Positions 14,145 through 26,865 of a DNA stretch of 32,356 nucleotides are shown one piece after another (position 1 is the first letter of the stretch; every line of letters begins with the position of its first letter). The position numbers and the translations under genes are program-made. This DNA is from Oscillospiraceae bacterium (lineage in GTDB: Bacteria; Bacillota; Clostridia; Oscillospirales; Acutalibacteraceae). The stretch spans positions 64,798 through 97,153 of the forward strand of contig CACYHA010000016.1 of NCBI GenBank assembly GCA_902774035.1, read 5' to 3'. Below the pieces are notes generated by a model, which saw nothing but the letters and a program-made list of their open reading frames with translations, searched no databases and was not told the DNA's origin.

Positions 14145-16334
14145 ATGAATAAAATCCTGCACCGAGCGCTTGCGCTTTTGCTCGTTTGCCTGCTGCTGAC
14201 CGGCGCAGCCGTTCCCGGCTTCGCCGCGTCAGTCGCCCGGGTGACGAAGCTGACGCTCAAGGAAAACACGAGCACTTCGATCCAACTCGGCTGGAAGGCC
14301 GTTTCCAAAGCGGACGGCTATGTTGTGGAACGCCGCGCCGGTCAATCGGAATGGAAAACGGCGAAGGAGACAGCGAAAACCGTCTTTACGGACACTTCTG
14401 TGAAGCCGGGCAAGGTCTATTCCTACCGTGTGAAGGCTTTCGTCAAGAACGGCAAGGCGAAGACCTTCGGTGAAGCGTCTGCGGCTCTGACCGCAATGAC
14501 AAAGCCCGAAGCGGTTTCCGAAGTCCAGATGGTCTCCGCCGCCTCAGGCGCCGCCGCAGTCACGCTGAAATGGCCTGCGGCCGCCGGCGCAACGAGCTAT
14601 CTCGTCTTCAAAAAGGACGTAACGACCAACCAGAAGTTCACGCAGCTTCTGGAAACGAAAAAAGAATCCTGTCTTGTGCAGTTTTCCGCCGCCCCGGGCG
14701 CCGTGGCATTCAAGGTGAAGGCGGTCGCAAAAAGCGGCGAGCTCAGCGAGAGCGCAGGCTTCAGCCCGGCGCTGAGCCTGAACCTCAAGCCGGAGCGTGT
14801 TGCCCGCCTTTCCGCAAAAAAAATCACCCCCACTTCGGTCACACTGACGTGGGATCCGGCGGACGGCGCTTCCTCCTACGAGGTCTTTCTGCGCAACGAG
14901 GCAAACTTTGAATACGAGCTGGTCGAGACCGTCACCGGGACGACCTGCACGGTCAAGGGGCTGGATTCCCTGACGCCGCATTACTTTGCGGTTAAAAGCG
15001 TCGCCTCCTACGGCGGCCAGATTCAGCGCACCGGTTTCAGTCCCGCGTATACGGCGACCACGGCCTTCAACGGAATTACCGGCCTCAAATTCTCACTGAA
15101 GGACGGCAATAAAGCGGTTCTCACCTGGGATAAGCTCTCCAGCGCCGACGGATATGAGATCGAAAAGAGCGCCGACGGAAAATCAGACTGGCAAAAGCTC
15201 GCCGATGTAAAGTCCGCCTCCTTTGAAGTCAGCGCGAAAGAACCGGGCGGCGTGCTCGAGAAGGGCAAGCAGTATTTCTACCGTGTTCGCGCCTATGCCA
15301 ACGAGGGCGGTGAAACGCAATTCACGGCATACAGCGAGATCGTAAAGATCCAGCCGGTGCCGGATACGCCGGTCATCACCCGCGCCGGAACCGCCTCGCA
15401 GCACGGCATCTGTCTGGAATGGACGGCGGTCAGCGGCGCCGACGGCTATGAGATCCAGTTCTGCAGCCCGCAGGACGGCAAATGGAGAGAGCTCGTTTCG
15501 GGAGAGATGCGATCGAAGCAGTTTAAGACCTATGTGAATGAAGACGGCGTCAAAACCGTGTATTATCTCGATCAGGGTCTGACGACGACCGACACCTATC
15601 AATACCGCGTGCGCGCCTTTGTGCAGGCGGGGGAGGAGCGGAGTTTCACCGAACCGAGCAACGCGTGGTCCCAAAAGTACATCTATTCTCCGGAACCGCA
15701 GGCTTACTATGCCGACACCTTCCAGAGCATCGGCATCGCCGGTTATCTCTATGATCCGGTGGAAAAGGTCTTCTTTACGGCGGAGGATCCCTGGCAGCGC
15801 AACTACGGCTTCAACACCGCCTACGACGTCGCTTCCCAGCATGTGTTCATTCAGTATGACACCGCGCCGATCCGTTTCACCTGCCACGAGGGTGAAAAAT
15901 GGATGATCCAGCCCTGGAAGGGCCAGTACGGCTTCCTGTTCTACGGCGGCGAGATCGGTGTGTATAAACAATACAATCCCCGCGATGTGGAGCATTACGA
16001 CTGCGCCGAAGACAAGGATCAGTTGATGATGGAGATGACGGTCAGCCGCCGCCAGCTCACCGGAAAATGGTCAAAGGAGATCCACCGCCCCTACGGTTCC
16101 TACTGGTGGGTCACCGGGTTCAAGCTCGGCTTTGTGCGCTTTGTCAGTTCCCTGCGCGCCCTGCGGTTCGATACCTATCGCGATCTGCGTATCGAGGCGC
16201 GGATCACCATGATGGACTATGATATGCGCAACGCTTTTGTGGCTGCGGTCAATGAGATCAACGCAAAAGAGCGGCGTTTCACCATAGCGGAATACGGCAA
16301 AAACGACCTGGATCTTTATATCACGTTCAATTAA
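14145..16334 (+). CDS. Secreted fibronectin-III repeat protein with C-terminal DUF4474, paralogue 2
   Basis: This is the 729-residue sister of the upstream gene. It has a signal peptide (MNKILHRALALLLVCLLLTG onward, cleavage near GFAA), five FN3-like repeats (about 29-515) and a DUF4474 domain (about 520-729) with DPWQRNYGFN, KWMIQPWKGQYGF, GEIGVYKQY and SYWWVTGFKLGF. It is about one FN3 unit shorter than paralogue 1, as expected from repeat gain or loss. The linker before DUF4474 (YIYSPEPQAYYADTFQ) resembles that of its sisters. The ATG has AGGAG six bases upstream. It starts 44 bases after paralogue 1 and ends 12 bases before paralogue 3, so the three are probably one transcript. Confidence 0.88.
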   Translation: MNKILHRALALLLVCLLLTGAAVPGFAASVARVTKLTLKENTSTSIQLGWKAVSKADGYVVERRAGQSEWKTAKETAKTVFTDTSVKPGKVYSYRVKAFVKNGKAKTFGEASAALTAMTKPEAVSEVQMVSAASGAAAVTLKWPAAAGATSYLVFKKDVTTNQKFTQLLETKKESCLVQFSAAPGAVAFKVKAVAKSGELSESAGFSPALSLNLKPERVARLSAKKITPTSVTLTWDPADGASSYEVFLRNEANFEYELVETVTGTTCTVKGLDSLTPHYFAVKSVASYGGQIQRTGFSPAYTATTAFNGITGLKFSLKDGNKAVLTWDKLSSADGYEIEKSADGKSDWQKLADVKSASFEVSAKEPGGVLEKGKQYFYRVRAYANEGGETQFTAYSEIVKIQPVPDTPVITRAGTASQHGICLEWTAVSGADGYEIQFCSPQDGKWRELVSGEMRSKQFKTYVNEDGVKTVYYLDQGLTTTDTYQYRVRAFVQAGEERSFTEPSNAWSQKYIYSPEPQAYYADTFQSIGIAGYLYDPVEKVFFTAEDPWQRNYGFNTAYDVASQHVFIQYDTAPIRFTCHEGEKWMIQPWKGQYGFLFYGGEIGVYKQYNPRDVEHYDCAEDKDQLMMEMTVSRRQLTGKWSKEIHRPYGSYWWVTGFKLGFVRFVSSLRALRFDTYRDLRIEARITMMDYDMRNAFVAAVNEINAKERRFTIAEYGKNDLDLYITFN

Positions 16335-16346
16335 GGAGGGTTCTCC

Positions 16347-18843
16347 ATGAAGAAAACCACGCATCGTGTCCTCGCGCTGCTGCTGGCCTGCCTTCTTCTG
16401 GTCGGGTCGGCGAACGTCGCCTTTGCCGCTTCGGTCGGCCAGGTGACAAAGCTTTCGGTCGAATCGCGCAAGACCACGTTCATCAAGCTCAAATGGAAAG
16501 CGGTCTCCAAGGCTTCCGGCTATCTTGTGGAGACCTATGACGAGGGAAGCTCGGGCTGGAAGACCGCAGGCACCACAAGCAAAACCGTCTTTGCCGTCAA
16601 TTCTCTGAAGCCCGGCACGAAATACACCTTCCGTGTGAAAGCGTATTCCGGCAGCGGAAGCGCCCGCGCCTACGGCAAGGCTTCGGAAAAGCTCTCCGTG
16701 CTGACGAATCCCGAACGTGTGGCCAAGGTGACGCTCGCCGCAACAACGCCGACGGCCGCCAAGCTGAAATGGCCTGCGGCCAAGGGCGCGTCCGGCTATG
16801 TCATCTATCGCGGCAAAACGGCGGACGGCAGCTTCAAAAAGATCGGCACGAGTGAAAAAGCGAGCTATAAAGCCACATTTGAGTCTTCTCCCGGCACGGT
16901 CTATTTCAAAGTCAGAGCGCTCGCCAAGAGCGGCGATCTGGAGCGGATGAGCGAACCGAGCGCCCCCGTGAAGGCAACGCTGCTTCCGAACGCCGTTGAC
17001 GAGATCGCCGTGAAGGAGTCCGGCGGAAAATACGTCGTTTTGAAGTGGAAGGCTGCCAAAGGCGCGGCAGGCTATTATCTTTTCCAAAGAGATGTGACGA
17101 CGAACAAGGAATTCGTGCAGGTCGCGAAGACCTCCAAGACCACCTATAAGGTTAAATTTCCGGCGGCTCCGGGCAAAGTCTGGTTCAAGGTGCAGGCTTT
17201 TTCAAAGGGCGGCGGCAAAGTTCTCACCGCCAAGGCCAGCCCTGCGCTGAAGGTTTCGCTCAAGCCTGCAAAGGTCACGGGTCTTGCCGTGAAAAGCGCG
17301 GGTCCGACAAAGCTGACGCTTGTTTGGAACGCCGCGGACGGCGCGACCGCCTATGAGCTCTATATGCGCGATGAGGCGACCCAGGAATACAAGCTCCTTG
17401 ACACCGTGACGGGAAAGACTTACACCGTCACTGGACTGGAACCGAGCACGGCCTATTATTTCTCTGTGAAGAGCGTTGCGGATCAACATCCAGCGTTCCA
17501 AGTTCAGCTCTGTGCTGAAGGCGGAAACGATCCTCGGCGTCATCACCGGGTTTGACTTCTCTCTGGATTCCGGCAACAAGCTGTTTCTGACCTGGAACGC
17601 AGTCAAGGGCGCGGAAGGCTATCAGATCGAGAAAAGCGCGAACGGCATCGACGGCTGGAAGACCATCGGCGACATCAAGGCAACCGTTTTTGAAGCCAGC
17701 GCTGTGGAAAGCGGAAAAGCGCTCGCCAAGGGGAATAAGTATTTCTACCGTGTACGTGCTTACGCAACGGAAGACGGCGCCCGTGTGTTTACGCCTTACA
17801 CCGATGTTGCCGAAGTGCATCCCATTCCAGACGCGCCGAAAATCACGCGTACCGGGTCCGGCGCGCAGCACTCCATCTGCATTGAATGGACGGCAGTGCC
17901 CGGCGCCGACGGGTTCGAGGTGTTCCGCTATGACAACGCCCAGAAAAAGTGGGTCAGTCTGATGAACGAGAACTCTCTCGTGGACGGCAACCTCTTCAAG
18001 ACCTATACGAATGAAAAGGGCGTCAAGACCACGTACTATTCCAACAAGGGGCTGGAAAAGAGCGGCACGTATCAATACCGTGTCCGTTCCGTTGTGAAAA
18101 ACGGCAGCCATTACAATTTCAGCGATTACAGCAATTCTGTTTCGCAGGACTATACTTTCACGCCGGAACCGCAAAAATACTATGACGACGCCACCCAGAA
18201 AACCGGCATCGCCGGCTATCTGTATGATCCGCAGGAGGATTGCTTCTGCACGGCGGACGATCCGTGGCAGCGCAATTTCGGCTTCAACAAGGTCTATGAC
18301 ATCGCCTCACAGGCGGTGATGATCCAGTATGACACCGATCCGATCCAGTTTGTTTGCCACGAGGGTGAGCAGTGGATGATCCAGCCCTGGAAGGGTCAGT
18401 ATGGCATGGTCCTTTACGGCGGCGAAGTCGGCGTGTATAAAAAATACACCGAGCGCGACGCGGATCACTATGACTGCGCGAAGGACGACGATCTTCTGAT
18501 GATGGAGATGGATCTTTACAAGTATAACTATGACACCCAGCAATGGGATCACGCGTTCCACCGTCCTTACGGCTCCTACTGGTGGATCACCGGCTTCAAG
18601 TTCGGCTATCTGCGCATGGTGAATCCTCTGCAGGCACAGTCCTTCAACACCTATCGTGATCTGTACATTGACGTGCGAATCACGCTGTTGGATTTTGATA
18701 TGTTCAACGCATTCAAAGCCGCGCTGGATCAGCAGATCGCCAAAGAAAAGGCGAGCGGAATGACCCGCATGAGCTATACCACGGGCGATGCGCCGAAGGG
18801 TACATCAACCGGCAATCTGGATCTGTATATCAAGTTCCAATAA
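16347..18843 (+). pseudogene. Fibronectin-III/DUF4474 paralogue 3, frameshifted
   Basis: The first frame opens with AAGGAGGG and an ATG at 16347: signal peptide MKKTTHRVLALLLACLLLVG, then four FN3 repeats. At codon 379 (17481) it leaves the family alignment and stops at 17555. The alignment resumes immediately in another frame from 17482, with two more FN3 units and an intact DUF4474 domain (DDPWQRNFGFN, QWMIQPWKGQYGM, SYWWITGFKFGY) to a stop at 18843. Aligned to paralogue 2 (KSVASYGGQIQR), the break is best explained by loss of 8 bases, for example from gcggat-tacggc-atcaac, where a repeated 'at' could allow slippage. Restored, the protein would have about 830 residues, close to paralogue 1. 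Recent inactivation and an assembly error both fit; the downstream frame shows no other damage. Confidence 0.85.
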
Positions 18844-18864: not shown

Positions 18865-19075
18865 GGGGCTGTTGCATTTAGCGAAAAACGTCAAAGCCAA
18901 AGAAAGGAAAAGCGCTTTCCGCAGACTTGTTCTGTGAAGAAAGCGCTTCTTTGCTTTTTCATTCGTAAAAGAAGTAGGGCTTTCTGCTTTGACTCGACGT
19001 TTTTTCGCCCTCGGCGTACTTTTGTACAGCCTTCGGTCGAAGAAAACGCCGTTTTCATCTAAATGCGACAGCCCC
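18865..19075 (+). repeat. MITE-like element with terminal inverted repeats, copy A
   Basis: The ends GGGGCTGTTGCATTTAG (18865) and CTAAATGCGACAGCCCC (ending 19075) are inverted repeats over about 23 bases with few mismatches. Inside lie a second inverted pair (GAAAAACGTCAAAGC at 18883-18897 and GCTTTGACTCGACGTTTTTTC at 18986-19006) and a strong central hairpin. There is no coding capacity. The inner 142 bases are repeated in opposite orientation at 3120-3269. I see no clear target-site duplication. It lies directly against the structured element that follows. Confidence 0.75.
18910..18959 (+). terminator. Hairpin terminator after the FN3-DUF4474 genes
   Basis: AAGCGCTTTC (18910-18919) pairs with GAAAGCGCTT (18939-18948). 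CGCAGA pairs with TCTGTG inside it, with a two-base bulge. CTTTGCTTTTT follows. It is the central hairpin of the MITE-like element and probably ends the long plus-strand unit. Confidence 0.6.
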
Positions 19076-19084
19076 CCGTTTTTT

Positions 19085-19259
19085 CGCACGGCTGTGCCGT
19101 GCGAAATGCGGCGGCGGGACCGCGCAGCCCGGGCTGCGCGAAAAAGGCGCGGGTATCCGCGCCTTTTTGCCTCGTGCAGATGCACGAGGCGTCCCGCCGC
19201 CGCCTTTTCGCGCAGAGGAGCTGCGCAAAAAATCCGCCGCAGGCAAATGCCTGCGGCGG
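19085..19259. repeat. Multi-hairpin structured element, copy 1
   Basis: Six stem-loops lie in order. (1) CGCACGGC/GCCGTGCG, 19085-19103. (2) A closing stem GCGGCGGCGGGAC (19108-19120) with GTCCCGCCGCCGC (19191-19203). This encloses three hairpins: (3) the palindrome CGCGCAGCCCGGGCTGCGCG (19121-19140); (4) AAAAAGGCGCGG/CCGCGCCTTTTT (19141-19168); (5) GCCTCGTGCA/TGCACGAGGC (19169-19190). Then come GCGCAG/CTGCGC (19210-19226) and (6) CCGCCGCAGGCA/TGCCTGCGGCGG (19234-19259). The architecture recurs at 26681-26865 with the enclosed core inverted. Every stem is almost perfect, so the structure rather than a protein appears to be kept. It lies between convergent genes. Confidence 0.85.
19227..19259 (-). 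terminator. Intrinsic terminator of the secreted-protein operon
   Basis: Read on the minus strand, CCGCCGCAGGCA-TT-TGCCTGCGGCGG is followed by ATTTTTT, a textbook intrinsic terminator 20 bases past the stop of the papain-fold gene. It is also the last hairpin of the structured element. Confidence 0.8.
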
Positions 19260-19279
19260 CCTAATAAGCAACGGATGTT

Positions 19280-20923
19280 TTATTTTTCAAACTTCGCTTT
19301 AGATCTGCGCGTAAACAGATCAAACAACTGCTGCAGCAGAGATTTCAGGTTTTTGAACAGCGCTTTGTACCAGGCCAGCGGTTCCGGATTGCCCTCAACT
19401 TTGAGCGAATCATAGGCACTGATGTCCTCGTTCCAGGAAAAGCCGTCCAGCAGATAATAGGTGTCGCTGTCATAGTAGCATTGCTCATAAAGATCGGTGA
19501 ATGCTTCGTCAATGTAGAAAATGTCGCAGGTGCCGTTTGCGTAGCAGCTTGAGCGGTTGTCCCAGCCGATGAGAATGCGGTTGCCCTTGCCGTCCGTGTA
19601 GGCGCCGGTGAGAAGAATCCCGTGGGCGCCTGTTGTGGCAAAGTCTTTGATCTCATCGATGCTTGCGGTTTTCAGCGGATGGTGGCCTCCCGGATAAAAC
19701 TCAAAGTATACGGGTGTTCCGTCGAGCAGAGTTTCGTAAAGCATTTTGAGCTGATTACGGTACTCAGCAGTGCCGCGTTCAATGGCGTTGTGGTTCGTCA
19801 CATGGGCAGCGGTGCACTGGTTGTTGTAGAAATTGATGATGCTTTGCAGCTCTTCGTCCGGTTCCAGCTCCGAAACCTTGCTGACGCCCTGGCGGGAGAG
19901 CAGGTCGAGCTTTCCGTAATATTGCAGCATGGTCGCGATCGGGAATCCGCAGCAGGAGCCGTCGAATTCCTGCGTCGGCCAGACGGTCATGAAGAAGGTC
20001 AGGCCCGCAGCCGCGATCGGCATCAGCGGGGTAAAGCCGAAGGTGGCGATCCAGTCCTTGCAGAACTGGCGCATGTGCTCCGGTTTGTAAAGATATCCTT
20101 CCGGAAGATCCGCGTTGAATACACCGCTGCTGTTGACAAAGGAGAAGACCTCGTCCTTCGCCATTTTCAGCGACGCATAGACAGGATAAAAGTCATAGAC
20201 GGTCTTGCCTTCGGCAACAATGCCCGTGTTGTCGATGGTGTCGGCGATTTCGTGATCATAGTGGTATTCGTCGGCCGCTTCGTCATAGACGTAGGGCGTG
20301 AGCGTGTTGTCGTAATAAAATGCCTTGCCGTCGGCGGTTTTCCAGCCGACGAGCATCTGGTGGCCGAACTGGCGCATTTTATAGGCGCCGGGAAGGTGGA
20401 TGTTGTCGCCCTCTTCACTGACAAGGGCAACGATCCCGTCTTCCAGATGGTAGTTCACCAGCGCGTACTTGTCAAGAACAGGCGAGATCCGCGTGATGCG
20501 GAAACCGTAGGCTGTGCCTGCTTCGTCGCTGTCGAGCGTGAGCGTAAAGCTGTTGCCCGGGAGGTAGATCCGCTTGGAGGACAGCCATTTTCCGGTGAAG
20601 CGGCCGTAAAGCGTGCCGTTGCCGTCAAGGATCGTCAAAAAGTCGCCGGTCTGGACAAAGCCGTTTTCGGCGTATTCCTGCAACTGCGATTCCGTGAAGT
20701 TTTCGTCAAGAAAATACAGCTCGCCGGCGTCAAATTCCGTTCTGTAATCAAAGTAAACGTAGAGTCCGGCTACGTTTTCCGGATAGGTGTAGGTCCACGT
20801 TTCGTGGCAGTTGTTTTCATAGTTGTGCGCGCTTTCGGGATAGGGGTCGGCGGCAAACGCAAAGGGCACAAACGTCAGCGCAAGCATGAGCGCAGACAGA
20901 AATACGCAAAATGATTTTTTCAT
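19280..20923 (-). CDS. Secreted CUB-like / papain-fold cysteine peptidase-like protein
   Basis: The 547-residue protein starts with a signal peptide (MKKSFCVFLSALMLALTFVP, cleavage near FAFAA, 24-25). A CUB-like beta-sandwich follows (about 36-148: LYVYFDYRTEF, GDFLTILDGNG, TLTLDSDEAGTAYGF). Residues about 154-250 resemble an InlB/Flg_new repeat (GWKTADGKAFYY, FYPVYA). A papain/C39-like domain spans about 315-490. Gln318 lies six residues before Cys324 in GSCCGF, like papain Gln19 and Cys25. His434 in GAHGILLTGAY and Asp455/Asn456 in GWDNR could complete the triad. Activity as a peptidase is inferred. The tail (LAWYKALFKNLKSLLQQLFDLF) is amphipathic and the end is basic. GGAGG lies eight bases before the ATG. 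It is the last gene of a three-gene exported-protein operon. Confidence 0.78.
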   Translation of the reverse strand: MKKSFCVFLSALMLALTFVPFAFAADPYPESAHNYENNCHETWTYTYPENVAGLYVYFDYRTEFDAGELYFLDENFTESQLQEYAENGFVQTGDFLTILDGNGTLYGRFTGKWLSSKRIYLPGNSFTLTLDSDEAGTAYGFRITRISPVLDKYALVNYHLEDGIVALVSEEGDNIHLPGAYKMRQFGHQMLVGWKTADGKAFYYDNTLTPYVYDEAADEYHYDHEIADTIDNTGIVAEGKTVYDFYPVYASLKMAKDEVFSFVNSSGVFNADLPEGYLYKPEHMRQFCKDWIATFGFTPLMPIAAAGLTFFMTVWPTQEFDGSCCGFPIATMLQYYGKLDLLSRQGVSKVSELEPDEELQSIINFYNNQCTAAHVTNHNAIERGTAEYRNQLKMLYETLLDGTPVYFEFYPGGHHPLKTASIDEIKDFATTGAHGILLTGAYTDGKGNRILIGWDNRSSCYANGTCDIFYIDEAFTDLYEQCYYDSDTYYLLDGFSWNEDISAYDSLKVEGNPEPLAWYKALFKNLKSLLQQLFDLFTRRSKAKFEK

Positions 20924-20938
20924 GGTGCATTCCTCCTT

Positions 20939-21988
20939 TTAATAGTGCCGTGCGCCGCAGCCGCAGAATTGATGGGTGCCGGTCAGGTGCCAGAACGCAA
21001 GCTTGAAGCGGAAGATCGCGTTGCGCAGCACTTGTGTCCAGTTGTCTTTTGTCACTTCCAGCGCCCAGGTGCGGTTGATCTTGTGGCAAAGGCAGTCGCA
21101 GTCGATGTCTTCGGTGTCCGCGAGGTTGGAGCTTCTGATTTCGCCGCAGCGTGAGCAATACACTTCGATGTAGGTTTTGCCGTCCTCTTTTTCGGTGCGG
21201 CGGGTCGTCCAGTTGTGGGAGAGCGGCTTGCTCTGTTCGCCGTAGATGCAGACGCCGCAGGGGCAGGTGACCGTGATTTCGCCGCCGTGCAGGCAGGTCG
21301 CTTCTTTTTCGCAGCGGAAGTAGGTGTGCGTGTGTCCTTCGCCAAGCAGCACAAAGGTCAAACCGTTTTCTTCGGCAAAGCGCTCCGCTGCGGAACCGGC
21401 AGAGCCTGCAAGCGCCGGAGTTTTGCCGCCGGCAAAGTTTTCGTCGATCTCCGTCACGCTTGCGGGGATCACGATGCAGACGCTTTGTTCGTTTTCCACC
21501 GGCGGATTCTTGATCACAACGCTGTATTCGCCGAGCTTTTCCGTGCCGTCGGGAATGCGGACGATGCCCTGCACAAGATTGCCCGGAACGGCAACCAGCG
21601 TTTTGCCGTCTTTGGTGAACAGCATCCCGTCAATGAGCGTGAACTGCGTGTTGTCCTCGTCAAGGCGGAAATCGCTTTGCGCCTTGCTTCCGGAATAGAA
21701 AGCGAAAACGGCGCCGGTGAAGTTTTCGGGCGTCACAGGCACATCGCCGAGCGTTTTCGGCACATAGATGCCTTCTGCGGCGTCAGCGGTAATGGGCGTC
21801 AATAATGACGGGCCGACATAACGCACGTCGGTCAAAACCTTTCCGTCCTCCGTTTCCTCCACATCGTAGGTGTAGCCGTATTCGTCCGAGAGGATCGGCA
21901 GCGGGGGATAGATGACCGTTGCGCCGGCGGGCAGCACCAACAAGCACACCAGCAGTAAAGCGAGCAAAATCGAGATCGTTTTTTTCAT
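20939..21988 (-). CDS. Secreted leucine-rich-repeat-like protein with Cys-rich C-terminal module
   Basis: The 349-residue product has a signal peptide (MKKTISILLALLLVCLLVLP). Its central region has BspA-like leucine-rich traits (FTLIDGMLFTKDGKTLVAVP, VRIPDGTEKLGEYSV, IPASVTEIDENF). The Cys/His-rich C-terminal part contains HTHTYFRCEKEATC, ITVTCPCGVC and VYCSRCGE, then CDCLCHK, an amphipathic stretch (LRNAIFRFKLAFWHLTG) and the ending CGCGARHY. The CDCLCHK-to-CGxxHY ending recurs in exported proteins of Clostridia and may bind metal or serve attachment; no function is proven. The ATG at 21988 overlaps the TGA of the GDPD gene (ATGA) and has AAAGGAG seven bases upstream, so the two are coupled. 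The next gene starts 15 bases after its stop. Confidence 0.82.
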   Translation of the reverse strand: MKKTISILLALLLVCLLVLPAGATVIYPPLPILSDEYGYTYDVEETEDGKVLTDVRYVGPSLLTPITADAAEGIYVPKTLGDVPVTPENFTGAVFAFYSGSKAQSDFRLDEDNTQFTLIDGMLFTKDGKTLVAVPGNLVQGIVRIPDGTEKLGEYSVVIKNPPVENEQSVCIVIPASVTEIDENFAGGKTPALAGSAGSAAERFAEENGLTFVLLGEGHTHTYFRCEKEATCLHGGEITVTCPCGVCIYGEQSKPLSHNWTTRRTEKEDGKTYIEVYCSRCGEIRSSNLADTEDIDCDCLCHKINRTWALEVTKDNWTQVLRNAIFRFKLAFWHLTGTHQFCGCGARHY

Positions 21989-22803
21989 GCGGATACTCCT
22001 TTCGTGAACGAGCGGCACAACTGCGGCGTCAGCTCGTCCGTTTCAATATAATCGACGCCGCAGGCAACACAGCGCTCATAATCTTCCCGTTCGTTGACCG
22101 TAAAGCAGCTCACACGCAGGCCCTTTTCGTGGAACCGGTCCACGATCTCCTTTGTCAGCTTGTTTTCCCTCATGTCGAGGTCAAAGCCCAGCCACCGGGC
22201 GACCTTTGCGTTGAAGCCGTCCTTCGTGCAGGCCATCATGATGCGCAGCTCCGGAAATGCGAGGCGTGCGATCAGAAGGTTCGGTAGTTCAAACGACTGA
22301 AACTCCACCCGGGAAAGGTCGTAGCGTTCCCTAGCCAGTCGGAATGCCGCAATGATGCTGCCCGGCAGCCAAACGCCCTTCAGCTCCACAAAGCAGATCA
22401 TGTTGAATTCTTTGCAGATATCCAGATACTCCGCAAAGCTGCAAAGATAGAGCTTGCTTTCGGTGCAATCGTTCTTGAGCGGCTTTTTTGTCAGTTGTTT
22501 GTAGGTGTGCGTGGCAATGCGCAGCCTGGAGCCGTCTTCAAATTCGGCCTCTGCGTCGTGGCTGAGCACACAGACGCCGTCAAGCGTCAGCCGCATATCG
22601 GTCTCCGCGCCCGGAAAACCGGCTTCTCCGGCTTTGCGAAAGGCCTCGGCGGTGTTGCCCTCGTAAAGAGAGGAATAGCCCTTGTGTCCGATCAGACATA
22701 CCTCGTCGGCAGAAGCCGGGTCGGTTCCTTCCCCGGCGGCAAACACAGGCAGTGTACACATAAGAAGAACGCAAAGAAAAGCGACTACGGATTTCATTGG
22801 CAT
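21985..22803 (-). CDS. Exported glycerophosphodiester phosphodiesterase-family protein
   Basis: The 272-residue protein has a signal peptide (MPMKSVVAFLCVLLMCTLPV, cleavage near FAA) and a GDPD TIM-barrel. The catalytic frame matches GlpQ: His40 and Lys41 in GHKGYS, Glu67 and Asp69 in GAETDMRLTLDG, and His82 in LSHDAE, with the usual spacings. The normal His-Arg-Gly motif reads His-Lys-Gly, a conservative but unusual change at a phosphate-contacting residue. Such enzymes hydrolyse glycerophosphodiesters to glycerol 3-phosphate and an alcohol; outside the cell, lipoteichoic acid or phospholipid head groups are possible substrates. AAAGG precedes the ATG; a second ATG two codons later is possible. 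It is the first gene of the exported operon and has a promoter at 22821-22849. Confidence 0.87.
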   Translation of the reverse strand: MPMKSVVAFLCVLLMCTLPVFAAGEGTDPASADEVCLIGHKGYSSLYEGNTAEAFRKAGEAGFPGAETDMRLTLDGVCVLSHDAEAEFEDGSRLRIATHTYKQLTKKPLKNDCTESKLYLCSFAEYLDICKEFNMICFVELKGVWLPGSIIAAFRLARERYDLSRVEFQSFELPNLLIARLAFPELRIMMACTKDGFNAKVARWLGFDLDMRENKLTKEIVDRFHEKGLRVSCFTVNEREDYERCVACGVDYIETDELTPQLCRSFTKGVSA

Positions 22804-22820
22804 CGCATCCTTTCCGCTTA

Positions 22821-22849
22821 ATCATAGCACAGTCGGCGTCACAAAACAA
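22821..22849 (-). promoter_or_regulatory. Promoter of the exported-protein operon
   Basis: On the minus strand TTGTTT (22849-22844), a 17-base spacer and TATGAT (22826-22821) are seen. TGC before the -10 gives an extended -10. It lies 18 bases before the GDPD ATG. Confidence 0.65.
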
Positions 22850-22888
22850 GAGCTTTGCAAAAAATGGACGAAAAATCGCGCCGTGAAC

Positions 22889-22916
22889 TGGACAAACGCG
22901 GAAAAAAGATTATAAT
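22889..22916 (+). promoter_or_regulatory. Promoter of the beta-propeller gene
   Basis: TGGACA (22889-22894), a 16-base spacer and TATAAT (22911-22916) lie 21 bases before the ATG. It is divergent from the exported-protein operon. Confidence 0.65.
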
Positions 22917-22937
22917 AAATAGAAAAGGAGTGGTGTT

Positions 22938-23741
22938 ATGCAGCGGAAAACCTATTCTTTGCGCGAAGTGCATGAAGTGCGCGGGCGGCAGGGGATCGCC
23001 TTTTGCGACGGCGGCTATATTGTCAGCGGTTCGACGACGCTCACACGGTATGACGAAAACTGGAACGTCTTCGCGGAGAACGCCGACCCCTTTGCTGTCG
23101 GCTTTTCTCAGCAGGTGAACCACATCGGCGACATCGACGTTTTTGACGGCGAGATCTTCTGCGGCGCGGAGCTGTTTTTGGACGGCGTTGCCGCCAACAT
23201 CCAGATCGCGGTCTATGACGCCGAAACGCTGCGCTTCAAACGCGCCTTTCCCTTTGCGCCGGAAAGCGGACAGACCGAGTGCTCCGGCATCACGGTGAAC
23301 GGCGACGACCGCACGGTGTGGATGTCCTCCTGGGCGGACGGGGAATCCGGCCGCTACCTTTATCAGTATGATCTGGATACCGGAAAATATCTGCGCAAGG
23401 TGCATCTGCACGCCGTGCCGCAATGGATCCAGGGCGTGGCTTATTTTGACGGCGCGTTTTATCTCACGGCCGACGACGGCGACGCCGATCTGGACGAGCC
23501 GGATCATATCTACCGCTGCGAGATCCTTCCCGGCGAGACACACTGCAAAGTCACGGAAGAAAAAACGCTGGACGACGTGATCAAACAGGGCGAGATCGAA
23601 GGTCTGGCCTTCGGAAAAGATCCGTTGCGGCTGCTTGTGCTCTATAACCGGGGCATGCGCATCGTTCTGGGTATGCCGGTCGCGCCCTATGAGGGCTACG
23701 ACGGAGAGATCCACGAAGTCTTTGTTTATGATATCTCTTGA
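22938..23741 (+). CDS. Predicted beta-propeller protein, function unknown
   Basis: The 267-residue protein has no signal peptide. It is built from repeated beta-strand blocks that read like propeller blades: GIAFCDGGYIVSGSTTLTRYD, IDVFDGEIFCGAEL, IAVYDAETLRFKRAFPF, GITVNGDDRTVWMSSW, LYQYDLDTGKYLRKV, GVAYFDGAFYLTADDGD and IEGLAFGKDPLRLLVLYN. This resembles six-bladed propellers of the esterase-like, phytase-like or SdiA-regulated type, but no catalytic motif is clear. AAAAGGAG lies seven bases before the ATG. It is probably a single-gene unit; a strong promoter for the next operon lies 17 bases after its stop. A cytoplasmic sensing, binding or lactonase role cannot be told apart here. Confidence 0.75.
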   Translation: MQRKTYSLREVHEVRGRQGIAFCDGGYIVSGSTTLTRYDENWNVFAENADPFAVGFSQQVNHIGDIDVFDGEIFCGAELFLDGVAANIQIAVYDAETLRFKRAFPFAPESGQTECSGITVNGDDRTVWMSSWADGESGRYLYQYDLDTGKYLRKVHLHAVPQWIQGVAYFDGAFYLTADDGDADLDEPDHIYRCEILPGETHCKVTEEKTLDDVIKQGEIEGLAFGKDPLRLLVLYNRGMRIVLGMPVAPYEGYDGEIHEVFVYDIS

Positions 23742-23757
23742 GGAAATCATCGGTTAC

Positions 23758-23786
23758 TTGACACGAAAAGCGGTCAATGCTATCAT
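23758..23786 (+). promoter_or_regulatory. Promoter of the M20-CMD-SDR operon
   Basis: TTGACA (23758-23763), a 17-base spacer and TATCAT (23781-23786) lie about 40 bases before the M20 peptidase start. The -35 is perfect and the -10 differs by one base. Confidence 0.8.
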
Positions 23787-23824
23787 CTGAACGAGCTTTT
23801 ACGAATTGGAAGGGTGGAATGTTC

Positions 23825-25291
23825 ATGGAACTCGGCTTTTATTTTCTGATTGGTGTGGCGGTGCTGGCCGCTGTGCTGTTTGCGGTGCTTGCCGTGCGTG
23901 CACAAAGGATCAAAGCGCAGGAGCGCCCGCCGCACGAAGCCTTTCGCAAGGAGATCGACGAGCAGAAGGCGATCCGCGATTTTTCGATGATGCTGCAGAA
24001 AAAGACGATCTGGCCGCGCGGAGAAGCGCCGGATCTGGCGCAGTTCGATGCGTTTTTACCGCTGCTGCAGTCGATGTATCCGCGCTGCTTTGCAGCCTTT
24101 GAAACGAACATTGTCAACGGTTACGGCATCCTTCTGCGCTGGAAAGGCAAAGACGGAACGAAGCTCCCGGTGGTGCTTATGGCACACTATGACGTGGTCG
24201 CCGCCGACGAGAGCAAATGGACGCTGCCGCCGTTTTGCGGCGAAGAACACGCGGGCTACATCTGGGGCCGCGGCGCGGTGGACACCAAATGTATCATCGC
24301 GGCGCTGCTGGAGGCGAGCGAGACCCTGCTCGCCGAGGGCTTTGCTCCGGAGCGCGACCTTTATTTTTCCTTCACCAACAACGAGGAGACCGGCGGCGAC
24401 ACCACGCCCGCCGTTGTGGAATGGTTCCGTGCGCGGGGCATCCGTCCCTGGTTCGTTCTCGATGAGGGCGGTGCGATCGTTCATGCTCCCGCGTTTGGCG
24501 TCAAGCGCGATTTTGCCATGGTCGGCGTCAGCGAAAAGGGCGTGATCGACGCGATCGTCAATGTGCGCGGCGTGCCGGGCCACTCCTCCACGCCGAAGGA
24601 CACCGATTCGACCTACCGCCTCATCAAGGTCTGCAACGAGATCGAGCACCATCAGTTCGAAGCGCATCTTTCGCCCGCCACGCGCGAGATGCTGCAATCC
24701 ATTGCGGGTTACGCCTCCTTCAGCACGCGGCTGGTGTTTGCGAACCTCTGGCTGTTTTCTCCGCTGGTGAAGCTCATCATGAGCCAGAACCCGGAGACCA
24801 ACGCCATGCTGCGCACCACGGTCGCCCTGACGAAGCTGCGCGGCTCCGACGTGATCAATGTGATCCCCACCACGGCGCAGGCGGGCTTTTCCGTGCGCGT
24901 TGCTCCGTGGGACAACGACGAGAAGGTCATCAAGCGTCTGCGCTCCATCTCCGGCGAGCATACCGAGATCACGAGCGAATACACCGTGGAGCCCTCTCCG
25001 GTCTCCCCGACCGACAACGACGCCTTTGCGCTGCTCAGTGAAACGGTGGACGATGTTTATCCCCGCGTTAAAACGGTGCCCTATGTCATGAACGGCGGCA
25101 CAGACTCCAAGCACTTTACCGGAATTTGCGAAAATGTCTACCGCTTCGGCGGCTTCCGCTTTTCCGACGAGGAACGCGCCGCCATGCACGGCAACGACGA
25201 AAAACTGAAAACCGAGAGCTTTCTGGACGGTATCCAGTTCTATCTCAAGCTTCTCATCAATCTGAATAAAGGAGAAACACCATGCAACTGA
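23825..25291 (+). CDS. M20-family metallopeptidase, membrane-anchored
   Basis: The 488-residue protein begins with one membrane segment (residues 4-25). The M20 zinc-peptidase motifs are complete: the His in VVLMAHYDVVA, the bridging Asp in GRGAVDTK, the Glu pair in FTNNEETGGD, the Asp in WFVLDEGGAI and the distal His in GGTDSKHF. The dimerisation domain lies between, with VRGVPGHSSTPKD. Length and layout resemble carboxypeptidase-S-like M20 enzymes, which cut dipeptides or N-acyl amino acids. The N-terminal anchor may place it on the membrane. I chose the ATG at 23825 with GGGTGG seven bases upstream; an ATG six bases earlier is too close to that site. Its stop overlaps the start of the CMD gene by 10 bases, so coupling is expected. 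Confidence 0.88.
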   Translation: MELGFYFLIGVAVLAAVLFAVLAVRAQRIKAQERPPHEAFRKEIDEQKAIRDFSMMLQKKTIWPRGEAPDLAQFDAFLPLLQSMYPRCFAAFETNIVNGYGILLRWKGKDGTKLPVVLMAHYDVVAADESKWTLPPFCGEEHAGYIWGRGAVDTKCIIAALLEASETLLAEGFAPERDLYFSFTNNEETGGDTTPAVVEWFRARGIRPWFVLDEGGAIVHAPAFGVKRDFAMVGVSEKGVIDAIVNVRGVPGHSSTPKDTDSTYRLIKVCNEIEHHQFEAHLSPATREMLQSIAGYASFSTRLVFANLWLFSPLVKLIMSQNPETNAMLRTTVALTKLRGSDVINVIPTTAQAGFSVRVAPWDNDEKVIKRLRSISGEHTEITSEYTVEPSPVSPTDNDAFALLSETVDDVYPRVKTVPYVMNGGTDSKHFTGICENVYRFGGFRFSDEERAAMHGNDEKLKTESFLDGIQFYLKLLINLNKGETPCN

Positions 25292-25824
25292 TTCCGATGA
25301 CCGACTATGAAACCGCCACGCCCGAAGTGAAAGCGGAATACGACGACCAGATCCGAAAACACGGACGCATCACCAACATGAAGCGCACCCTCCTGCACGA
25401 CGTTCAGTCCTTCAAAACCTACATGGACTGGTACACGCTCTACGACGAGCTGAAGCCGACCTTCGGCGACCGTGCGCTGACGATTTTCTCCCATGCGATC
25501 TCCACCGGCAACGACTGCCTGATCTGCGGCACATTTTTCCGTAAGATCCTGATCGACGCAGGGGAGGATCCTGCGAACCTCACACTGAATGAGACCGAGC
25601 AGCTTCTCTTTAACTTTGGATTGCAGATCACGAAAAATCCGCACACCATTGACAACGCGATCTATGATAAGCTGCGTGCGCGCTACACGGATCAGCAGCT
25701 TGTGCAGCTCATCGCCTTTGCCGGGATCATGTATGCCACGAACCTGTTCAACACTGTGGCGAAGGTGCCGCTGGACGACGTGCTTTACAGCTATTTGAAC
25801 GATGCAAACAAGGAGGAAGACTGA
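25282..25824 (+). CDS. Carboxymuconolactone decarboxylase/AhpD-like family protein
   Basis: The 180-residue all-helical protein carries the AhpD-like redox motif: Cys79 and Cys82 in GNDCLICGTFF, preceded by HAIS in place of the usual proton-relay residues. The family includes peroxidase-associated disulfide reductases and gamma-carboxymuconolactone decarboxylases. The CxxC favours a redox role, but the substrate is unknown. AAAGGAG lies before the ATG. The gene overlaps the M20 gene by 10 bases, and its stop overlaps the SDR start (TGATG), so all three are translated together. This suggests one pathway: peptide or amide cleavage, redox protection and alcohol/ketone conversion. Confidence 0.85.
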   Translation: MQLIPMTDYETATPEVKAEYDDQIRKHGRITNMKRTLLHDVQSFKTYMDWYTLYDELKPTFGDRALTIFSHAISTGNDCLICGTFFRKILIDAGEDPANLTLNETEQLLFNFGLQITKNPHTIDNAIYDKLRARYTDQQLVQLIAFAGIMYATNLFNTVAKVPLDDVLYSYLNDANKEED

Positions 25825-26627
25825 TGGGAACATTTGACGGAAAAGTGGTATTTATCACCGGCGCGGCTCACGGCCAGGGCAGAGCCACCGCCCTTGCCTT
25901 TGCAAAAGAGGGCGCTGCGGTCGCGGCGTTCGACGTTGCAAAGAAGATCGAATACCCGGCCTATGCATTCGGCACAAGCGACGAACTGAAAAGCGTGAAG
26001 GCCGAGATCGAGGCGCTCGGCGGAAAATGCCTGATCGCCAGCGGCGACGTGCGCTCCGACGAAAGTGTGACTGCCGCTGTGGAGGCGACCGTTGCTGCCT
26101 TCGGCAAGATCGATGTGCTGTTCAACAATGCCGGCATCTGCGCTTACGCCGAGATCGACACCATGACCGACGAGGCATGGAACGCCATGATCGATATCAA
26201 TCTCAAAGGCCCGATGAATGTCACGCGCCGCGTGGTGCCCTACATGAAGAAAGCGAAAAGCGGCGTGATCATCAATAATTCCTCTGTCATGGGTCTGCGC
26301 GGCGGCAACCGTCTGTCGCATTATGCCGCCTCCAAATGGGGCCTGACGGGCTTGACAAAATCCTGGGCGATCGAGCTTGCGCCCTACGGCATCCGCGTGG
26401 TATCCATCCATCCCACCGGCGTGAACACCCCGATGAATGACGGTCTTGCCGCCATGGAAGGTATGACGCCGCAGGAGATCGCCGAGCGTTCGGCGGGCAA
26501 TCTGCAGCCTGTGCCTTGGGTGGAGCCGGAGGACACGGCGAACATGGTGCTGTTTTTGGCGAGCGAAAAGGCGCGGTACTGCACCGGCGGACAGTATTTG
26601 CTGGATGCGGGTTTGCTGACGGTGTAA
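25824..26627 (+). CDS. SDR-family NAD(P)-dependent oxidoreductase
   Basis: The 267-residue short-chain dehydrogenase has the cofactor loop TGAAHGQG (12-19), Asp37 at the end of the second strand (NAD preferred), NNAG (101-104), a Ser at 153-154, and Tyr167 with Lys171 in HYAASKWG. The insert after strand 2 (YPAYAFGTSDELKSVKAEIE) and the block NSSVMGLRGG resemble the subfamily that includes mycofactocin-coupled SDRs, although no mycofactocin genes are visible here. It should interconvert an alcohol and a ketone; the substrate is unknown. GGAGG lies seven bases before the ATG, inside the end of the CMD gene. It is the last gene of the operon, ended by the hairpin at 26652. Confidence 0.9.
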   Translation: MGTFDGKVVFITGAAHGQGRATALAFAKEGAAVAAFDVAKKIEYPAYAFGTSDELKSVKAEIEALGGKCLIASGDVRSDESVTAAVEATVAAFGKIDVLFNNAGICAYAEIDTMTDEAWNAMIDINLKGPMNVTRRVVPYMKKAKSGVIINNSSVMGLRGGNRLSHYAASKWGLTGLTKSWAIELAPYGIRVVSIHPTGVNTPMNDGLAAMEGMTPQEIAERSAGNLQPVPWVEPEDTANMVLFLASEKARYCTGGQYLLDAGLLTV

Positions 26628-26651
26628 GCTTATTTTAAGCGATTGTGTTTG

Positions 26652-26680
26652 GGGGCTGTTTTCGGAACAGCCCCTTTTTT
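26652..26680 (+). terminator. Intrinsic terminator of the M20-CMD-SDR operon
   Basis: GGGGCTGTT (26652-26660), the loop TTCGG, then AACAGCCCC and six T. The stem arms are the same sequence as the outer ends of the MITE-like element at 18865-19075. The structured element starts immediately after the T-run. Confidence 0.9.
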
Positions 26681-26865
26681 CGCACGCTGCTTTGCAGCGT
26701 GCGAAAGGCGGCGGCGGGACGCCTCGTGCGTTCGCACGAGGCAAAAAGGCGCGGACACCCGCGCCTTTTTTGCGCGGCGTTCGCCGCGCGGTCCCGCCGC
26801 CGCCTCGCTGCGCAGCGAAGCTGCGCAAATTGCCCCCGTGCAGAGTTTTCTCTGCACGGGGGCAA
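26681..26865. repeat. Multi-hairpin structured element, copy 2 (core inverted)
   Basis: Its order of hairpins is that of 19085-19259. CGCACGCTGC/GCAGCGTGCG lies at 26681-26703. The closing stem GGCGGCGGCGGGAC (26707-26720) pairs with GTCCCGCCGCCGCC (26791-26804), 14 perfect pairs. It encloses GCCTCGTGCG/CGCACGAGGC (26721-26742), AAAAAGGCGCGG/CCGCGCCTTTTT (26743-26770) and GCGCGGCG/CGCCGCGC (26772-26789). The palindrome TCGCTGCGCAGCGA (26805-26818) and a 16-bp stem TTGCCCCCGTGCAGAG/CTCTGCACGGGGGCAA (26830-26865) follow. The GCCTCGTGC hairpin is first in the core here and last in copy 1, so the core is reversed while the flanks are not. The last hairpin may also terminate the minus-strand genes. 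Confidence 0.85.

Follow-up and report, generated by a model that had tools for sequence, protein, structure and literature searches.

A dispersed palindromic repeat family with a potential four-armed junction and inverted cores in an Oscillospiraceae bacterium and its relatives

Several groups of short dispersed repeats resemble the elements that we describe here. The GC clusters and double-hairpin elements of fungal mitochondria are dispersed GC-rich hairpin units; unlike these, the present element lies on a bacterial chromosome and has five hairpins and a closed junction. MITEs are short, non-coding and present in high copy number, as is the element, and are characterized by terminal inverted repeats and target-site duplication, whereas for the element neither a terminal inverted repeat spanning the entire unit nor a clean insertion with a target-site duplication was found. 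The element also resembles the REP, BIME and REPIN sequences, which are dispersed extragenic palindromes with many copies and several hairpins per unit. It differs from these in its unit of approximately 150 bp, its four-way junction, its inverting cores, and in that no RAYT linkage was found. A search of titles and abstract openings, mostly outside the subscription journals, returned no description of this layout.

Template switching is described in one study as homogenizing the arms of inverted repeats and inverting the spacer between them, the spacers studied reaching up to 70 nt (PMC8604942), and another describes compensatory changes together with loop inversion (PMC8794818). Perfect arms, two-sided changes and spacer or loop inversion are common to these cases and to our element, which differs in that a single repeat family shows them on two nested scales, one of them with a spacer made of three hairpins.

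The window analyzed is a stretch of 32,356 nucleotides (contig CACYHA010000016.1, positions 64,798 to 97,153) from an Oscillospiraceae bacterium (GCA_902774035.1). Two structures that the initial annotation had pointed out in it, here called W1 and W2, are both present (Table 1). In each, two flank hairpins, H1 and H5, lie on either side of a closing stem that encloses three hairpins, the junction usually having no unpaired base. The core hairpins run A-B-C in W1 and C-B-A in W2, so the core order is reversed, whereas H1 lies to the left of the core and H5 to its right in either copy. With DNA parameters W1 folds at −77.1 kcal/mol against a shuffle mean of −40.6 (z −11.8), and with RNA parameters W2 folds at −127.3 kcal/mol against −77.2 (z −12.0), each from 200 dinucleotide shuffles. 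The closing stem encloses a spacer of 70 nt in W1 and W2, and a longer one where copies have long loops; these lengths lie at or beyond the limit of the range studied in PMC8604942, which counts against template switching as the cause.

Table 1. Features of W1 and W2 and of their immediate neighbors (positions within the window).
Feature	Position	Strand	Remarks
W1 flank hairpin H1	19082..19106	+	TTTCGCACGGC TGT GCCGTGCGAAA
W1 closing stem, 5′ arm	19108..19120	+	GCGGCGGCGGGAC
W1 core hairpin A	19121..19140	+	first in W1
W1 core hairpin B	19141..19168	+	A-tract/T-tract, bidirectional-terminator-like
W1 core hairpin C	19169..19190	+	GCCTCGTGC; last in W1
W1 closing stem, 3′ arm	19191..19203	+	GTCCCGCCGCCGC
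W1 flank hairpin H5	19210..19226	+	GCGCAG..CTGCGC
W2 flank hairpin H1	26678..26706	+	TTTCGCACGCTGC TTT GCAGCGTGCGAAA
W2 closing stem, 5′ arm	26706..26720	+	AGGCGGCGGCGGGAC
W2 core hairpin C	26721..26742	+	first in W2 (inverted core)
W2 core hairpin B	26743..26770	+	
W2 core hairpin A	26772..26789	+	last in W2 (inverted core)
W2 closing stem, 3′ arm	26791..26805	+	GTCCCGCCGCCGCCT
W2 flank hairpin H5	26809..26827	+	TGCGCAGC GAA GCTGCGCA
Terminator-like hairpin of leftward gene 19280-20923	19234..19259	−	outside element
Separate repeat abutting W1	18866..19075	.	across genus; outside element
Terminator-like hairpin of SDR gene 25824-26627	26651..26675	+	outside element

The element is smaller than had been proposed. 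The left flank shared by both copies (ACAGCCCC, then TTTTTT) is not part of it, since in W2 this sequence reads as the terminator of the SDR gene and in W1 it closes another element, itself widely repeated. The long terminal hairpins that had been included also lie outside it; the one beside W1 reads as an intrinsic terminator, that of the leftward gene. Terminators were called here by matching to a consensus, and the two matches per region are not clearly above the shuffle means of 1.3 and 1.1. No promoter-like match was found around W1 or W2.

Nor is the element confined to the two copies first recognized. The genome of the window contains 69 distinct places at E≤0.001 (94 strand matches, obtained by scoring 150 of 3804 candidates), the goat-rumen MAG RGIG3704 contains 39 (from 53 strand matches) and the MAG RUG13829 at least 43 (from at least 62), and the further copies carry compensatory changes. 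When 34 genomes of the genus were searched by sequence, the element was found in these three, one (G004) gave a borderline match, and 30 gave none. Its absence from most of the genus holds for sequence search, as a structural scan adds a family in G002 which was found by structure alone: it has 51 places, the same core layout, a different sequence, and again an A-tract/T-tract in the middle hairpin. The carriers are a few related bacteria, apparently of the rumen. Applied to 622 kb of fetched loci, which were picked for their matches to the element and include overlaps, a strict structural scan recovered 97 distinct, perfect four-way cores; it recovered none once 195 kb of these loci had been shuffled in blocks of 50 bases. 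Members of the family are dispersed, intergenic and lineage-specific, each can fold into a four-armed junction, and many occupy orthologous sites in different species. At the gathering score Rfam recognized a tRNA in the window and no family for the element (W1 gave 58 sub-threshold matches), in agreement with the initial view that no named family has this layout. An origin from phages or plasmids was considered and set aside: viral contigs held no exact pattern match, and phage and plasmid records no distant match to W1.

The elements lie mostly at the 3′ ends of genes, the 97 cores being distributed among convergent (46), tandem (38) and divergent (3) gene pairs, predicted ORFs (3) and edges (7). 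With so few cores inside ORFs, and with its copy number in the window genome, the family has the dispersed, extragenic, high-copy distribution of REP, BIME and REPIN sequences. Terminator-like sites aimed at the element flank 18 cores on the left and 16 on the right, compared with 9 of 243 random pieces. Hairpin B carries an A-tract/T-tract in most aligned cores (A-U in 22-25 of 33 per position), and a GC stem followed by a T tract, as in an intrinsic terminator, is found in most aligned copies and not in all, some hairpins B having no T tract.

Alignment of 34 cores (33 distinct) showed 97.4% of 1346 cells to be paired, against 31.6-46.4% in slid controls. Two-sided changes affected 162 cells and one-sided changes 8, and 24 of the 42 pairs showed two-sided change. 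G·U accounted for 10 of about 1311 paired cells (about 0.8%), as against 14 of 150 pairs (9%) in seven tRNAs of the fetched loci. In orthologous hairpins, 416 inner stem positions carried seven two-sided and three one-sided changes, a small count from hairpins that had to be perfect in both orthologs. Among the copies compared no loop sequence is conserved, and the arms of the closing stem differ.

That the core is reversed by inversion between its arms, as the initial annotation suggested, was seen at orthologous loci. Twenty-five comparisons of core orientation gave 15 same, 5 inverted and 5 unclear; the five inverted comparisons represent three loci, and W2 compared with its ortholog in RGIG3704 (inverted score 100.5, direct score 54) is a fourth. 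At these four loci, with the flanks in register, core inversion is real. Strict scoring of the 97 cores found 41 scorable, 37 of them standard and 4 inverted (one of these is doubtful, as L040 belongs to a divergent subtype), and 56 not scorable. Loops behave similarly. Flank-checked windows from 23 ortholog pairs, counting element hairpins only, contained 33 changed loops of equal length, of which 7 were exact inversions against a permutation mean of 2.5 (P 0.0021); since 8 others were single direct substitutions and 18 were neither, loop inversion is one process among several.

We consider it somewhat probable (roughly 0.55) that this is a REP-like palindromic DNA repeat family of new layout, whose shape is kept mainly by template switching during replication. 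A polymerase jumping between the arms of an inverted repeat would use one arm as template for the other, so that stems become perfect and changes appear on both sides, and one crossing the spacer would invert what lies between the arms, be it a three-nucleotide loop or the whole three-hairpin core. Spread would be REP-like, by some transposition or copying step. Two-sided changes, rare G·U and loop inversion all fit template switching, so that compensatory change is no proof of an RNA; from these sequence patterns we infer that template switching is the cause and that the element has no RNA function. The compensatory changes reported initially are confirmed, whereas the conclusion of selection on structure is weakened because loops and arms also invert and homogenize. 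Of the mobile element, RNA and recombination substrate among which the initial annotation did not choose, the evidence favors a DNA-level palindromic repeat. Template switching alone does not explain the sequence-unrelated family of G002, which suggests that something favors the layout itself.

A structured non-coding RNA or cis-acting 3′UTR element, selected for its folded shape, would account for the near-complete pairing with two-sided change, the extreme folding energies of W1 and W2, the position at gene 3′ ends and the unrelated G002 family of the same core layout. We think it unlikely, given loops that are not conserved, G·U pairs far scarcer than in the tRNAs, inversion of loops and whole cores between orthologs, the lack of an Rfam family at gathering score, and a terminator-like hairpin of a neighboring gene adjoining both W1 and W2. 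Slightly better placed, and still tentative, is selection of the element as an insulator or strong bidirectional terminator separating gene ends. The excess of convergent over divergent sites argues for it, as do the A-tract/T-tracts of most hairpins B and of the G002 middle hairpin; in a share of the copies, however, hairpin B lacks the T tract, some copies are already flanked by terminator-like sites, and terminator polarity is seen in only one of five hairpins. Site-specific recombinase action on the closing-stem arms, making the element an invertible switch, is improbable. Core inversion between inverted repeats, as in such switches, does occur at four orthologous loci, but the arms vary among copies, no promoter-like match lies near W1 or W2, one relative orientation predominates among the scorable cores, and three-nucleotide loops also invert, which would not be expected of a recombinase with its own site.

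Mobilization as a non-autonomous REP/REPIN-type element, by an HUH transposase such as a RAYT, is possible on about the same footing as the terminator. The hairpins are dispersed and intergenic, G012 and G015 have no four-way core at their W2 gene, and locus L220 of RGIG3704 has a composite that is not present in RUG13829. No clean filled/empty pair at the nucleotide level was found among the loci compared, the difference at L220 being a larger composite and the 164-bp extra at L257 another palindromic repeat. The window genome (85% complete) has two Y1_Tnp matches; C16 was examined for hairpins and C15 is partial. The C16 gene (C16:241-573) is adjoined by a different hairpin, and on this gene the link to RAYT/IS200 was rejected. 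Matches to Y1_Tnp occurred in 13 of 21 genomes searched, comprising 2 element carriers, 10 genomes without an element match and the borderline G004, and no foot tag of the GTAG/CGTC type was noticed by eye in element copies. It is also conceivable, though doubtful, that the working form is the folded DNA four-way junction, which would make this a new class of chromosomal element with junction enzymes or folded single-strand spread, and core inversion in its cycle. One genus holds two families with no recognizable sequence similarity, a closing stem around three hairpins and an A-tract/T-tract middle in common, an observation in favor of such a class.

Covariation commonly serves as an argument that an RNA is functional. 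In the present family strong covariation goes together with inverted loops and cores and with few G·U pairs, a pattern expected if replication keeps the stems perfect, and the family offers a caution for RNA discovery resting on covariation alone. The unrelated G002 family with the same core layout raises the question of what favors such junctions. With dozens of copies per genome in three related genomes, the family is a test bed for the rates at which template switching produces compensatory changes and inversions in bacteria.

The window contains two members of a dispersed repeat, W1 and W2, each consisting of a flanking hairpin (H1), a closing stem with hairpins A, B and C inside it, and a second flanking hairpin (H5). 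Judged by eye, H1 looks like hairpin C and H5 like hairpin A in the window's family, which gives the layout C′-(A-B-C)-A′. Two features assigned to the element by the initial annotation belong elsewhere: the long hairpin to the right of W1 reads as the terminator of the leftward gene, and the supposedly shared left flank (ACAGCCCC/T6) reads at W2 as the terminator of the SDR gene and at W1 is where another repeat ends.

The window's own genome (G000) gave 53 strand matches in a BLAST search with W1. A covariance model (R1), built from 34 cores, gave 94 strand matches at 69 distinct places, a lower bound with 150 of 3804 candidates scored. Among the 34 genus genomes, the own one included, R1 matches are numerous in three (G000, G018 and G036, the last presumably the same genome as G032), G004 has a single borderline one and the other 30 have none; 11 genomes from different families of the order likewise had none. 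Of 84,980 species genomes, a set that may lack records that are the window's own or very close to it, only two MAGs contain an exact pattern of 31 letters, 27 of them specified: RUG13829 (G018; 8 stretches), where we take RUG to stand for rumen, and the goat-rumen RGIG3704 (G032; 10 stretches). Searches of phage, plasmid and viral collections gave no match to the element. Several contigs end inside or beside elements (G032 C7, C17, C24, C45, C58 and C66; G000 C32 and C42), an effect to be expected of repeats or of mixed orientation.

Table. Elements and neighbouring features (G, same-genus genomes; L, loci fetched from them; C, contigs)
Feature	Location	Coordinates	Remarks
Element copy W1	window	19082-19226	
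Element copy W2	window	26678-26827	core order reversed relative to W1
MITE-like repeat	window	18866-19075	GGGGCTGTTGCATTT ends; adjoins W1; conserved ~80-bp end found across genus, e.g. 16 matches in G002
Split fn3-repeat/DUF4474 gene	window	16347-18843	overlapping ORFs 16347-17555 and 17476-18843 differ in frame; frameshift or assembly error
Composite repeat, 450-580 bp	G018/G032: L122; L119; L129; L220	1-520; 5650-6260;; 1378-1960	GGAATTTGGAATGTGG-like ends; embeds element
Palindromic repeat, 164 bp	L257 (G032)	1606-1770	GTACCC..GATTCACTC ends; precisely missing at G018 orthologous site
RAYT-like Y1_Tnp gene	L190 (G000 C16)	241-573 and downstream	own GACAGGGGGACGGTTCTCTGTC hairpin; adjoins apparent IS110-type transposase (by eye)
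G002 family examples	L284-L289 (G002 C33)	e.g. L284 19614-19733	four-way-junction family, sequence unrelated
Lone strict four-way core	L309 (G031)	14546-14627	yet another sequence

Ninety-seven distinct strict cores were collected, 77 of them without an unpaired junction base; of the 291 core loops, 255 measure 2-4 nt and 22 measure 29-40 nt. Across 34 aligned cores 97.4% of cells are paired, with two-sided change in 162 cells versus one-sided change in 8, and G·U accounts for 10 of about 1311 as compared with 14 of 150 in seven tRNAs.

For elements that occupy orthologous sites and whose flanks match on either side, cores were compared in both direct and inverted orientation. Orientation was the same in 10, inverted in two and unclear in one of 13 comparisons of G032 with G018; the corresponding figures are four, two and three of nine for G000 against G018, and one each of three for G000 against G032. 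The inverted cases represent three loci. The L224 core is flipped relative to L113/L259 (inverted 157, direct 35). That of L239 is inverted with respect to both L250 and L086, which agree, placing the flip on the G018 branch, and that of L031 is inverted, with moderate margins, relative to both G018 and G032, which places the flip on the G000 branch. W2 is a fourth such locus: its G032 ortholog, located after the same SDR gene and split over two contigs, carries the core the opposite way, and the inversion between arms initially guessed for W2 is thus borne out. Loops are also inverted. In flank-checked windows of 23 ortholog pairs, element hairpins are identical in 18 cases and different in 48; among the latter are 33 changed loops of equal length, of which seven are exact reverse complements (one of only 2 nt; permutation mean 2.5, P 0.0021) and eight are single substitutions. 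At L221, for instance, GTT faces AAC between nearly unchanged flanks. Neighbouring hairpins gave 0/8 loop inversions.

Template switching between inverted-repeat arms is reported to leave homogenised arms and an inverted spacer (PMC8604942), and in RNA genes, including bacterial ones, to produce compensatory changes as well as inverted loops (PMC8794818). As a single process it would account for the perfect stems, the changes on both sides, the scarcity of G·U and the inversion of loops and core. It explains neither spread nor the recurrence of the core layout, with a different sequence, in G002. At some sites the presence of elements differs between genomes: a structural scan found no four-way core downstream of the W2 gene in G012 and G015, G018 has a different insert there, and the L220 element of G032 sits within a composite absent from G018. 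Many sites are common to G018 and G032, so movement now seems slow.

A structure-only scan, run on stretches of further genus genomes, revealed 10 strict four-way cores within 140 kb of G002, a genome without R1 matches. The same scan found four in G000 (140 kb) and one each in G018 (100 kb) and G031 (15.6 kb); G016 (120 kb), G014 (140 kb), G030 (140 kb) and block-shuffled sequence had none. The G002 cores differ in sequence from the window's family, having the closing stem GCGGGGAGGC and A5/T5 tracts in the middle hairpin, and H1/H5-like flanks were not seen at them by eye. Seven well-aligned cores are 98.0% paired, with 16 two-sided cells and one one-sided; a model built from these (R2) gave 89 strand matches at 51 distinct places in G002, single weak matches in G000, G017, G018 and G036, and none in 29 of the 34 genus genomes.

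According to our own ORF caller, the 97 cores lie in convergent (46), tandem (38) or divergent (3) gaps, in predicted ORFs (3) or at edges (7). Because a chromosome has about as many convergent as divergent gaps, 46 versus 3 is a strong excess (3.5e-11, orthologs not being independent); in G000 alone it is 25 versus 2 (2.8e-6). This fits promoter avoidance or terminator preference, and is no proof of terminator function. Twelve G002 cores (13 relaxed hits minus one AT-rich hit) are convergent in six cases, tandem in four and divergent in two.

The window's family is genuine and out of the ordinary. The most probable reading is a REP-like palindromic repeat acting at the level of DNA, with a closed four-way layout that is unusual and that recurs within the genus in unrelated sequence. 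The covariation in the window's family should not count as proof of an RNA.
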